DNA from: a bacterium
GTDB lineage: Bacteria; UBA10199; 2-02-FULL-44-16; JAAZCA01
Direction: 5' to 3'
NCBI GenBank assembly: GCA_021810905.1
Contig: JAJZQH010000015.1
Location: 1 to 53,453, forward strand
Length of the DNA stretch: 53,453 bases
Shown: one piece after another, positions 103 through 52,480 of the stretch
Numbering within the stretch: the first letter of the stretch is position 1
Layout of the letters: every line of letters starts with the position of its first letter
Notes under the pieces: model-generated
What the model was told of the DNA's origin: nothing
The model's input: only the letters and a program-made list of their open reading frames with translations
Database searches by the model: none
Translations under genes and position numbers: made by a program

Positions 103-370
103 GTCGAGCCTCCTTGTTATGAGATCGCTATACCACATAAGTTTCCTGACGTGCGTAGAGGCGTTTGAGCAGAGATGCAGAGAAAAACGACGCGCATCTT
201 CAAACGCAGAACCGATGCGGATGTGCGCGATATGTGCGATGATGGCGGCATGAACTGATGAATGGCTCCGATGTCGGGCAAGATCGAAAATCGCGTTCGC
301 AAAAATCGTCAATATAAAAGTCAAGAGCACGAAATATTTTTTCAGGAGAAGAGACGTATATGTCCAAGTT

Positions 371-511
371 GTCACTTCGTTCTGACGATAAAGGTTATTT
401 GTTGTCACTTCGTTCTGACCGCAGATGTTATTTATTCAGAGCTTACGCTCTTCACTTATTGCATGGCGGTTCCGAGCTACGCTCGTCACGCTTTATAGCT
501 CCTGTACGTTG
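371..511 (+). repeat. Copy of the 72-73 bp mobile element, interrupted by a second copy
   Basis: Bases 371-403 match the left part of the element found in the tRNA-Ala remnant at the other end of the window (GTCACTTCGTTCTGACGAT, then AAGGTTATTTG). Bases 472-511 match its right part (CCGAGC, CGCTCGTCAC, CTCCTGTACG). Joined together they make 73 bp, the same length as the copies at 52181-52252 and 52278-52350. The element has a small internal hairpin (GAGC/GCTC) and no coding capacity. It follows a TT dinucleotide, as the other full copies do. Confidence 0.75.
404..471 (+). repeat. Divergent element copy nested inside the 371-511 element
   Basis: This copy begins with GTCACTTCGTTCTGAC, as the outer copy does, and then diverges (CGCAGATGTTATTTATTC). 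It keeps the GAGCTTACGCTC hairpin and ends near 471, where the outer copy resumes. It is about 68 bp long and also follows TT. The arrangement indicates that one member of the family jumped into another. Confidence 0.65.
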
Positions 512-676
512 TCCACAAACTCGTCGGCCGACGGCGGATGTCAGGTGAAGCCGGGCCGTCGGCCAGGGTATTGTGGGCAACTTGGACCAGGGATCGATCT
601 CGCGGTATTTTGTCGAAGCGTACGGCGGATGAACCAAAATTTCCGTCGATTTTGATGTGTCAGATCAATAACAAAT

Positions 677-13646: not shown

Positions 13647-14801
13647 TCATCGTTTGAGCTTGAGGGACGCTGCGAGGGCTTCGGCGTAGGTTTCCGCGAG
13701 GGGGCGGCGGGTTTTTCTCGCTAGCCTCTTCACGTCCTCAAACTCCGGCATGGCCTTGACGATGCGGCCTTTGGAGTCGCGGCCTACCTTGAATGTCATG
13801 CCGCCTTGCTTCACCTTTCCTTTCACGAACTCACGCGTGAGCATCTTGCGCTCGGCGGGCCAGTAGCGCACGCCGAACGTCGTTGTTTCCGAGAGCATCG
13901 CGTCGATCACGCGATCTTTTGCCGCGCCCGGCGCGATGCAGGAGAGCCGCACGCCCGGGCGGTTCTTCTTCATCTGGATCGGCTGCAACGTCACATCCAC
14001 CGCCCCGGCGGCGAAGAGTTTTTCCATCGCGTTCTCGAAGAGCTGCGGGTTCATGTCGTCTATGTCCGCCTCGATCGCCACCGCGGCAAAGCCCTCGCCG
14101 ATGAGCAGCCTCAGGCAATTCGGCCTGCCGGGGATCTTCCTGTCGCCGAAGCCCACTCCCACGCGCTCGACCTTCTGCAGCGGGCTCTCGCCGAAGTGCG
14201 CGACAACCGTCGCGAGTATTGCCGCGCCCGTGGGTGTGACGATCTCGCCCTTGACCTTGGTGCTCTCAAGCGGCACGCCCTTTAGAATCTCGAGTGTGGC
14301 CGGCGCAGGCACGGGCAGCTCGCCGTGAGCGGTTCGCACGCTGCCGCGCGACATGGGCAGGGGCGAGGCATGGATCTCGTCGAATCCGAAGTAGTCGAAG
14401 CCGATGGCCGCTCCCACCACGTCCACGATCGAATCCACGTCGCCCACCTCGTGGAAGTGCACGCGATCGAGAGTCACCCCGTGAACGCGCGCCTCCGCAT
14501 TTGCGATGCGCGCCATGATTGCGCGCGCCATATCGCGCACCTGCGATGGAAGCCCGCTCTCTGCGATCAGGCTGTCGATTTCGGAATAATGCGCGGAATG
14601 CGATTCGTGTTTCACGATCACGCGCACGTCGGTCCCGGCGATGGCGTCATTTTTTTTCTTCGCTACGAGGTCGTAACTGCCCATGCGCAGGCAGCCGAGC
14701 TGCTTCTTGAGATATGAAAGCGGCATGCCCGCATCGATGAGCGCACCGAGGATCATGTCGCCCGCGACACCGGAGAAGCAGTCGAACCAGGCGATCTTCA
14801 T
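13647..14801 (-). CDS. larC: LarC, nickel-pincer cofactor biosynthesis protein
   Basis: This 384-residue protein matches the LarC family (formerly DUF111). LarC is the CTP-dependent cyclometallase that inserts nickel into the pincer nucleotide cofactor of lactate racemase and related LarA enzymes. Family hallmarks are the N-terminal FDCFSGVAGDMILGALIDAG, the HFHEVGDVDSIVDVVGAA segment, TPTGAAIL, and DIDDMNPQ in the C-terminal half. In some Firmicutes larC is split into two frames; here it is one open frame. No larA, larB or larE is in the window. The start ATG overlaps the stop of the upstream CorC-like gene by four bases, so it is the last cistron of the hrcA operon. Confidence 0.9.
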   Translation of the reverse strand: MKIAWFDCFSGVAGDMILGALIDAGMPLSYLKKQLGCLRMGSYDLVAKKKNDAIAGTDVRVIVKHESHSAHYSEIDSLIAESGLPSQVRDMARAIMARIANAEARVHGVTLDRVHFHEVGDVDSIVDVVGAAIGFDYFGFDEIHASPLPMSRGSVRTAHGELPVPAPATLEILKGVPLESTKVKGEIVTPTGAAILATVVAHFGESPLQKVERVGVGFGDRKIPGRPNCLRLLIGEGFAAVAIEADIDDMNPQLFENAMEKLFAAGAVDVTLQPIQMKKNRPGVRLSCIAPGAAKDRVIDAMLSETTTFGVRYWPAERKMLTREFVKGKVKQGGMTFKVGRDSKGRIVKAMPEFEDVKRLARKTRRPLAETYAEALAASLKLKR

Positions 14802-51955: not shown

Positions 51956-51984
51956 CAGGTTTATTGCCGGGAAGCGGATCCGCA

Positions 51985-52143
51985 GTTTGACAAACAGTTT
52001 TTTCGCCTAAACCCGATGTGGGGTTGGTGGGGCACTAGCTCAGCTGGGAGAGCACCACGTTCGCAACGTGGGGGTCGAGGGTTCGAATCCCTTGTGCTCC
52101 ACCAACCCCATATTTTTTTTGGCGAAAAAACTGTTTGTCAAAC
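51985..52143. repeat. 23 bp perfect inverted repeat flanking tRNA-Ala
   Basis: Bases 51985-52007 (GTTTGACAAACAG then TTTTTTCGCC) are the exact reverse complement of 52121-52143. Between them an inner inverted repeat, TGGGGTTGGT (52019-52028) and ACCAACCCCA (52101-52110), directly extends the tRNA acceptor stem and pairs with the encoded CCA. The whole segment can fold as one long hairpin with the tRNA at its tip. Confidence 0.85.
52029..52104 (+). tRNA. tRNA-Ala (anticodon CGC)
   Basis: Acceptor GGGGCAC / GTGCTCC, D arm GCTC / GAGC, anticodon arm CCACG-TTCGCAA-CGTGG with anticodon CGC, and T arm GAGGG-TTCGAAT-CCCTT. The 3' CCA is encoded, unlike the two tRNA genes upstream. The gene sits inside a long inverted repeat. 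Confidence 0.92.
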
Positions 52144-52180
52144 CAGCTGGGACCTGCTGGCAGGCAGGGAGCACCACGTT

Positions 52181-52252
52181 GTCATTTCATTCTGACGATA
52201 GAGGTTATTTGTTCCTCGCTCCGCTCGTTACTTAATTATAGCTTCTGTTCGT
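52181..52252 (+). mobile_element. 72 bp element inserted in the anticodon loop of the tRNA-Ala copy
   Basis: It begins GTCATTTCATTCTGACGAT and ends CTTCTGTTCGTG, with a CCTCGCTCCGCTCG hairpin in the middle. It lies between T33 and C34 of the tRNA. It follows TT and leaves no target duplication. It is related to 371-511, 52278-52350 and 52428-52480. Confidence 0.75.
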
Positions 52253-52277
52253 GCGCAACGTGGGGGTCGAGGGTTCG

Positions 52278-52350
52278 CACGTACAAAAGCTGTAATAGAG
52301 TGGAGAGCGAAGCTCGGAACAAATAGCCTTGATCGTCAGAGCAATGCGAC
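52278..52350 (-). mobile_element. 73 bp element inserted in the T loop of the tRNA-Ala copy
   Basis: Read on the minus strand it begins GTCGCATTGCTCTGACGATC and ends CTTTTGTACGTG, collinear with the copy at 52181. On that strand it follows ATT, so the TT rule holds. It splits the T loop between TTCG and AA. Confidence 0.75.
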
Positions 52351-52427
52351 AATCCCTTGTGCTCCACTGATCCAATCGCTTTATTGTGCCGAAACATGTC
52401 CTGCTGTTTTTTTCTTGTCGAGGGTTC

Positions 52428-52480
52428 GCACGTACACAGGTCGTGATAAAGTGACGAGCGCAGCGAGGAACAAATAGCCT
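52428..52480 (-). mobile_element. Truncated element copy next to a T-arm fragment
   Basis: On the minus strand the sequence reads AGGCTATTTGTTCC, a CGCTGCGCTCG hairpin and TGTGTACGTG, matching the right two thirds of the element. It abuts the tRNA T-arm piece GTCGAGGGTTCG (52418-52427... on the plus strand), just as the copy at 52278 does. Its broken end coincides with the stop codon of the deaminase gene. Confidence 0.65.

Follow-up and report, generated by a model that had tools for sequence, protein, structure and literature searches.

How does a tRNA gene come to be broken in three of its loops while an intact copy of the same gene survives next to it? The question is raised by a tRNA-Ala locus near the end of the DNA stretch analysed here (the window, 53,453 nt), which is the entire contig C21 of genome G000 (2.98 Mb, 99.5% complete). 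As a rule tRNA genes, which belong to the most conserved of all genes, are regarded as passive targets for incoming mobile DNA.

The tRNA-Ala locus and its broken copy

In the window the intact tRNA-Ala(CGC) is preceded by tRNA-Val and tRNA-Arg (ARAGORN). It is followed by pieces of a second tRNA-Ala, called here the outer tRNA, separated by inserts. Two of the inserts belong to an element that we call beta; alpha denotes a double hairpin that recurs in other genomes. The features of the locus, in window coordinates, are as follows:

51974..51983, no strand: possible remnant of the centre of an alpha double hairpin, GCGGATCCGC, presumed from direct reading; G001 has GTCGAGGATCCGCGCTTTGACAAAC there
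51985..52011, + strand: left arm of a 27-nt inverted repeat around the intact tRNA-Ala, 96% complementary, including TTGACA (computed)
52029..52104, + strand: intact (inner) tRNA-Ala, anticodon CGC (ARAGORN; Rfam, 63.7 bits)
52117..52143, + strand: right arm of the 27-nt inverted repeat around the intact tRNA (computed)
52144..52152, + strand: outer tRNA-Ala, positions 13-21 (join alignment)
52153..52168, + strand: 16-nt D-loop insert CCTGCTGGCAGGCAGG, a partial palindrome; G002 has a full palindrome, CCTGCCTGCCGGCAGGCAGG
52169..52180, + strand: outer tRNA-Ala, positions 22-33 (join alignment)
52181..52253, - strand: reversed copy of the beta element between 33 and 34 of the anticodon loop, as also found, with the same orientation, in G001 and G002
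52254..52277, + strand: outer tRNA-Ala, positions 34-57 (join alignment)
52278..52350, + strand: beta element in the T loop (57/58), 88% identical to the same-site copy of G002
52351..52367, + strand: outer tRNA-Ala, positions 58-74 (join alignment)
52417..52428, + strand: second T-arm fragment, tRNA positions 46-57
52429..52480, + strand: third beta copy, truncated, after the second T-arm fragment

When joined, the pieces of the broken copy are identical to positions 13-74 of the intact tRNA-Ala at 62 of 62 bases. The preliminary description was therefore right that the copy follows the intact gene from the D arm to the 3' end and that its arms are restored base for base once the inserts are removed. 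Inserts in the D, anticodon (33/34) and T loops were also confirmed, but the D-loop insert is 16 nt long, not 17-18, and the anticodon-loop insert, given as 72 bp, measures 73 nt, with edges ambiguous by 1-2 nt. The two 73-nt inserts are inverted relatives (65-nt arms, 78% complementary), as had been noticed; in the orientation of the element used here, the anticodon-loop copy is reversed and the T-loop copy forward. Positions 1-12 of the outer tRNA-Ala are missing from the window.

A related architecture is present at the same locus in the separately assembled genomes of three other genera (G001, G002 and G003), which rules out the assembly artefact considered earlier. Chance is excluded, since both beta inserts match about 15 dispersed places of their own genome with E values down to 1e-20. 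A sequence-only model of beta gave 25 matches there, at roughly 17 to 20 distinct places.

Outer and inner tRNAs in related genomes

In G001 the outer tRNA-Ala starts upstream of the inner one: its positions 1-15 are followed by a hairpin insert holding the intact tRNA-Ala, positions 16-33, the anticodon-loop element, positions 34-57, a T-loop insert and positions 58-74. In G003 the intact tRNA-Ala lies inside the anticodon loop of the outer tRNA-Ala. Complete nests were found for tRNA-Val of G005, tRNA-Ser and tRNA-Met of G031, tRNA-Ser of G017, tRNA-Ala of G001, and tRNA-Gly and tRNA-Ala of G003. The intact tRNA-Val of G005 forms the loop of the second hairpin of alpha, which splits an identical outer tRNA-Val in its anticodon region. 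Such split outers are missed by tRNA-finding programs because only the inner tRNA is called.

The broken tRNA-Ala of the window had been described as a duplicate placed after the intact gene. By comparison with these nests it more plausibly represents what is left of an outer tRNA, namely the 3' part of one that would once have enclosed the intact gene and is complete in other genomes; the window would thus show a decayed form of the nested arrangement. Its 27-nt inverted repeat has its counterpart in the hairpin arm around the inner tRNA of G001 and G003.

Many outer tRNAs, including that of the window, are missing one half. In three of the complete nests (G031 Ser, G031 Met and G017 Ser) the outers differ from the inners and the acceptor stems stay perfect through paired changes, e.g. 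the compensatory GGGCGCG/CGCGCCC versus GGGCCCT/AGGGCCC of the outer and inner tRNA-Met of G031. ARAGORN recognises these three outers, once joined, as tRNAs and assigns to each the anticodon of its inner tRNA. The outer tRNA-Gln of G000 has compensatory differences in its D and anticodon stems. Through such differences from the inner tRNA, some outers retain a perfect cloverleaf. Taken with the conservation of beta sites between genera described below, the compensatory outers suggest either that some outer copies are under constraint and not simply decaying, or that the locus has been transferred laterally. The apparent constraint could reflect splicing, a structured RNA, lateral transfer, or an outer and inner tRNA that were already paralogous before insertion.

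No Rfam family was assigned to the inserts of the window or of the other nests scanned, and sub-threshold matches to microRNA and leader families were set aside as chance. The group I core (RF00028) likewise gave no match in the window at the gathering threshold or in the other nests scanned at E<=1. As a positive control, the same model scored 83.6 bits on a canonical group I intron at L320 1526-1770 (G000:C17, about 13750-14000), which interrupts the anticodon loop of tRNA-Asn(GTT), the single such gene detected in G000.

Two further readings concern the outer copies. (i) The interrupted outers might be working RNA genes, with inserts that are spliced out to give a second functional tRNA, or with an extended-loop cloverleaf that is itself a stable structured RNA; the inserts would then be small introns or functional arms. 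We consider this rather unlikely. The joined outers with the right anticodon and with compensatory differences from the inner (G031 Met, G031 and G017 Ser, G000 Gln) argue for it, as do the position-specific conservation of beta between genera and the fact that the host uses tRNA introns, the tRNA-Asn of G000 containing one of group I. Against this, many outers have lost one half (positions 1-12 in the window), no ribozyme was recognised in the inserts by Rfam, and beta is found both ways round (forward in the T loop, reversed in the anticodon loop), which would be intolerable for a self-splicing intron. Moreover, the compensatory differences could predate insertion if outer and inner were paralogous tRNAs. 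If outer tRNAs are spliced, a new splicing activity would be at work in bacteria. (ii) The loci might be tRNA-in-tRNA genes, in which an outer tRNA is interrupted at the D, anticodon, variable and T loops by several small structured insert families absent from Rfam, and in which the insert of the anticodon or D loop carries the entire gene of an inner tRNA with the same specificity. The inserts would then be new small introns, or the unit a mobile cassette that takes over the role of the gene it has destroyed. This interpretation is possible, if doubtful.

Split tRNA copies across the family

The frequency of such loci was estimated in four genomes of the family, each from another genus, using the stretches around the listed tRNAs and counting as fragments those matches to a tRNA's own sequence that lie on the same strand within 450 nt (<=450 nt) and score at least 13. 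Second-copy fragments were found near 35 of the 152 intact tRNAs examined; as controls, a non-cognate tRNA gave a hit in 10 of 760 tests, and the rate for the opposite strand was 1.3%. In two genomes of the same order but of another family, one of 33 tRNAs had a cognate fragment, and this single case is real, being a tRNA-Met with alpha in its D loop.

Clean splits, i.e. two fragments contiguous in the tRNA and separated in the genome, touch the D, anticodon, T or variable loop in 24 of 25 cases, against a background of 56%. The data support tRNA-loop insertion as a family-wide habit of several element families, not of one only. The earlier proposal that loops are the preferred target is supported within tRNAs, but not for the dispersed copies of beta discussed in the next section.

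The inserts measure about 16-110 nt, and more when they hold a tRNA. Apart from alpha and beta, three recurrent modules without an Rfam match were recognised by eye: a T-loop module GTTCGACGACCTTC..GAAGTGYCGGCGAGTGGG..GCCGRC, a second T-loop module ending in ..GAAATCCCG.AGC..GCGGAGGG, and a D- or anticodon-loop module with GAATCCCYGGAGTGCGAGG..GCGGTTACG.AAGGG. A motif GGTGGGTGAGAA..GTTCGACGACC recurs just past the terminator of the intact tRNA, where it precedes a T-loop module and then a duplicate of the tRNA's 3' end (e.g. L134, L122, L099 and L150). At about 1620-1900 of L017 (G000:C18), a third tRNA-Ser fragment (GGTGGGAGTTGGGTGAGAAAACGCGTGGGTTCG) precedes what appears by eye to be the start of an insertion-sequence transposase gene.

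Several of the downstream fragments are repeats of 14-20 nt running from the T loop to the tRNA 3' end. In this they resemble the attachment-site duplications of integrative elements, for which tRNA 3' ends serve as attachment sites. Nevertheless, it is highly improbable that the loci are remnants of such elements, or plain tRNA pseudogenes with chance repeats: the splits also fall in D and anticodon loops, the inserts are short (mostly 70-240 nt), no integrase was recognised by eye in the list of ORFs beside the window locus, and the duplicates are nested rather than flanking and are conserved in other genera. The nested cases largely refute this reading.

At the tRNA-Thr of G003, a flank of about 64 nt and the start of the tRNA are duplicated in a tandem-like manner with an insert at the junction. 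Locus L098 (G002:C8) contains an antisense copy of tRNA-Met positions 10-39, at +106 to +135 of the intact tRNA-Met and before the 3' part of the outer.

It is conceivable that no dedicated element is involved, and that replication stalls at hairpin-prone tRNA genes, followed by template switching and palindrome correction, from which the apparently compensatory hairpins would also arise. Such a process would account for the tandem-like duplication in G003, for antisense partial tRNA copies (L098) and for the inverted repeat around the window tRNA, which includes a promoter-like TTGACA that is hard to explain by RNA pairing. Since this promoter-like sequence is probably untranscribed, DNA-level palindrome correction could be the source of the paired changes. 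We nevertheless regard template switching as unlikely to explain the loci, given that the inserts form recurrent sequence families whose letters are conserved across the families of the class, and that GIY-YIG genes cluster at the nests.

The alpha and beta elements

Alpha is a recurrent insert of D and anticodon loops with the dyad-symmetric structure TCCCGAC-hairpin-GTCGAGGATCCTCGAC-hairpin-GTCGGGA. An alignment of seven sequences contains 45 pairs, 26 of them with double compensatory changes, and the closing stem abuts the split junction. Alpha thus consists of two adjacent covarying hairpins present in many copies (28 places), as is characteristic of double-hairpin elements. At E<=1e-5 it was detected in 8 of the 46 genomes of the class and in 0 of 339 others. 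At the same threshold, 25 of its 28 distinct places lie within 300 bp of an intact tRNA (hand count), and two of the remaining three are on one short contig of G008, the first place beginning at base 1. In several genomes an intact tRNA is located inside alpha, within a loop of the outer copy of the same tRNA.

REP/BIME repeats with their RAYT transposases and the Rickettsia palindromic elements are short palindromic bacterial repeats, some of which lie inside genes. Alpha resembles an inverted hairpin pair, and Y1 transposases are encoded in all four family genomes, which would suit REP/BIME-like elements moved into single-stranded loops by a Y1 (RAYT-type) transposase. However, Y1 genes are equally present in the alpha-less genomes G006, G009, G010, G013, G015 and G034, none was found in the alpha-bearing G004 and G008 (both incomplete), the 5' junction has no constant tetranucleotide, and dispersed beta copies show no loop preference. 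This explanation is very unlikely, and a Y1 transposase was rejected as the mover because its presence does not track alpha. Unlike REP/BIME and the Rickettsia elements, the inserts have a tRNA-loop habit, and we found no constant foot sequence or linked transposase.

Besides the tRNA-Ala of the window, three further tRNA loci of G000 carry beta in a T loop, each adjoining the intact gene:

C9: Arg(ACG) fragment
C18: Ser(GGA) fragment
C16: nearly full copy of tRNA-Gln(CTG)

The T-loop site of beta is GGTTCG^AATC. The copies of the 72-bp element were listed in the genome and its relatives, as the preliminary description had proposed: those of the relatives are mostly in broken tRNAs, and about 11 of the G000 copies are at non-tRNA places and have no T-loop motif. 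The suggestion that the element generally prefers hairpin loops was not borne out, as the site of dispersed copies falls in a loop in 3 of 7 joined flanks, against 130 of 400 random positions.

Among 39 relatives, strong beta matches were obtained in only three same-family genomes, each from another genus, and mostly in broken tRNA copies (tRNA-Ala in all three; tRNA-Gln and tRNA-Arg(CCT) in G002). At the tRNA-Ala locus the reversed anticodon-loop beta is shared by G000, G001 and G002, and the T-loop beta by G000, G002 and G003. Same-site copies of different genera are 87% (anticodon loop, G001/G002), 88% (T loop, G000/G002) and 83% (T loop, G002/G003) identical, and copies at two sites of one genome 61% (G002) and 73% (G000), in a comparison that covered one genome per species and genera far apart, whose TrmH proteins share 45-60%. 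Neither a target-site duplication nor, within one species, an empty site was seen. RNAalifold predicted beta without covarying pairs, its predicted fold being weakly supported. Pattern scans for the beta 3' end in genome and viral collections found nothing, though beta is plain in same-family genomes.

Composite, partly duplicated beta elements are located near the contig start, at window positions 364-513. Because a similar arrangement with similar flanks was found at C9:326200 (a contig end), C4:57105-57218 and C6:23229, a larger repeat may carry beta along. Two dispersed copies, at L004 (C20:171091) and L006 (C2:244444), are immediately followed by AGGAGG, which resembles a Shine-Dalgarno sequence, and by a potential start codon, a position resembling a 5' untranslated region.

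GIY-YIG genes and a proposed homing-type explanation

In the tRNA-Met nest of G002, a GIY-YIG ORF and the intact tRNA-Met both lie inside the anticodon-loop insert of the outer copy, and at the tRNA-Met of G005 and the tRNA-His of G001 a GIY-YIG ORF lies between an alpha-bearing outer fragment and the intact tRNA (Pfam). Across eight genomes, with UvrC-like genes excluded, 5 of 17 stand-alone GIY-YIG genes are <=165 nt from a tRNA, while about 1.4% of the genome is within 300 bp of one. Most nests have no GIY-YIG gene nearby; G000 has one stand-alone gene, away from any tRNA, and none at the window locus.

Phage T6 encodes SegB, a GIY-YIG homing endonuclease whose cuts fall within tRNA genes, at RAWTSGAAC, and which causes a tRNA segment to be amplified in tandem (PMC13096335). 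This motif is the complement of GTTCSAWTY, which by our own reading is the T-loop sequence. The T-loop site of beta sits in the middle of GTTCSAWTY, and local tRNA duplication, a SegB-like feature, is present in the family genomes.

Because the splits are loop-exact, extra partial copies are present and an intact gene survives, homing with cut and repair is the best single account. We suggest, tentatively and with a probability of about 0.48, that hairpin elements invaded tRNA loops in a homing-type manner and that local duplication left one working gene. The cuts, at conserved loops of tRNA genes, would be made by a mobile unit to which a free-standing GIY-YIG homing endonuclease is linked; repair would leave a hairpin element (alpha, beta or another) at the cut and would also duplicate part or all of the tRNA locally. 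The intact copy would persist inside or beside the invaded tRNA, allowing the host to survive, and the window would be a later, decayed product that has no endonuclease gene of its own. By analogy, a site-specific cut of the GIY-YIG type at conserved tRNA loops would fit at least as well as the preference for single-stranded loops put forward earlier. The dispersed beta copies need a route other than a cut by a homing endonuclease. The outers with compensatory differences and the similarity of same-site beta copies between distant genera also speak against the model.

Comparison with known systems

Archaeal tRNA introns occur at several positions, in the D, anticodon and T regions, and need a bulge-helix-bulge motif and a splicing endonuclease. 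To our knowledge they have no intact nested copy. The inserts described here fall in the same regions but are accompanied by such a copy.

Bacterial group I introns in the anticodon loops of tRNAs (PMC3984707) share the insertion into a tRNA loop, and the tRNA-Asn of the same genome holds a real one. In contrast to these introns, the present inserts are short, are not of group I by Rfam, occupy all loops, occur in both orientations and come with an intact copy.

The mobile double-hairpin and repetitive hairpin elements of mitochondria have conserved stems and are mainly intergenic, although isolated examples occur in rRNA (PMC2800124 and works cited there). The elements studied here share with them the short single or double hairpin, the conserved stems and an occasional location inside RNA genes; unlike them, alpha hardly occurs outside tRNA loops and can have a tRNA inside it.

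The literature searched, with most subscription journals and preprints outside its scope, contained no description of nested or loop-interrupted bacterial tRNAs, and the pattern is real, unusual and apparently undescribed. It seems to work like homing-type mobile elements of double-hairpin build, which is a likeness only and not membership in a described family.

With SegB and related GIY-YIG homing endonucleases of T-even phages (PMC13096335, PMC2988022) the loci share local tRNA duplication and, in some nests, GIY-YIG genes beside tRNAs. The motif at which SegB cleaves tRNA genes is a T-loop one by our reading, and the T-loop site of beta lies within it. On the other hand, the elements described here reside in bacterial chromosomes, place hairpins in D, anticodon and T loops, and have no endonuclease gene near the window; the intact tRNA is nested inside the invaded one. 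In this one lineage many tRNA loci have been split at loops and rebuilt, and an intact gene survives within or next to the remains. Should the homing model be true, they show how an essential single-copy gene can be invaded without death of the host, and constitute a chromosomal counterpart of phage SegB.
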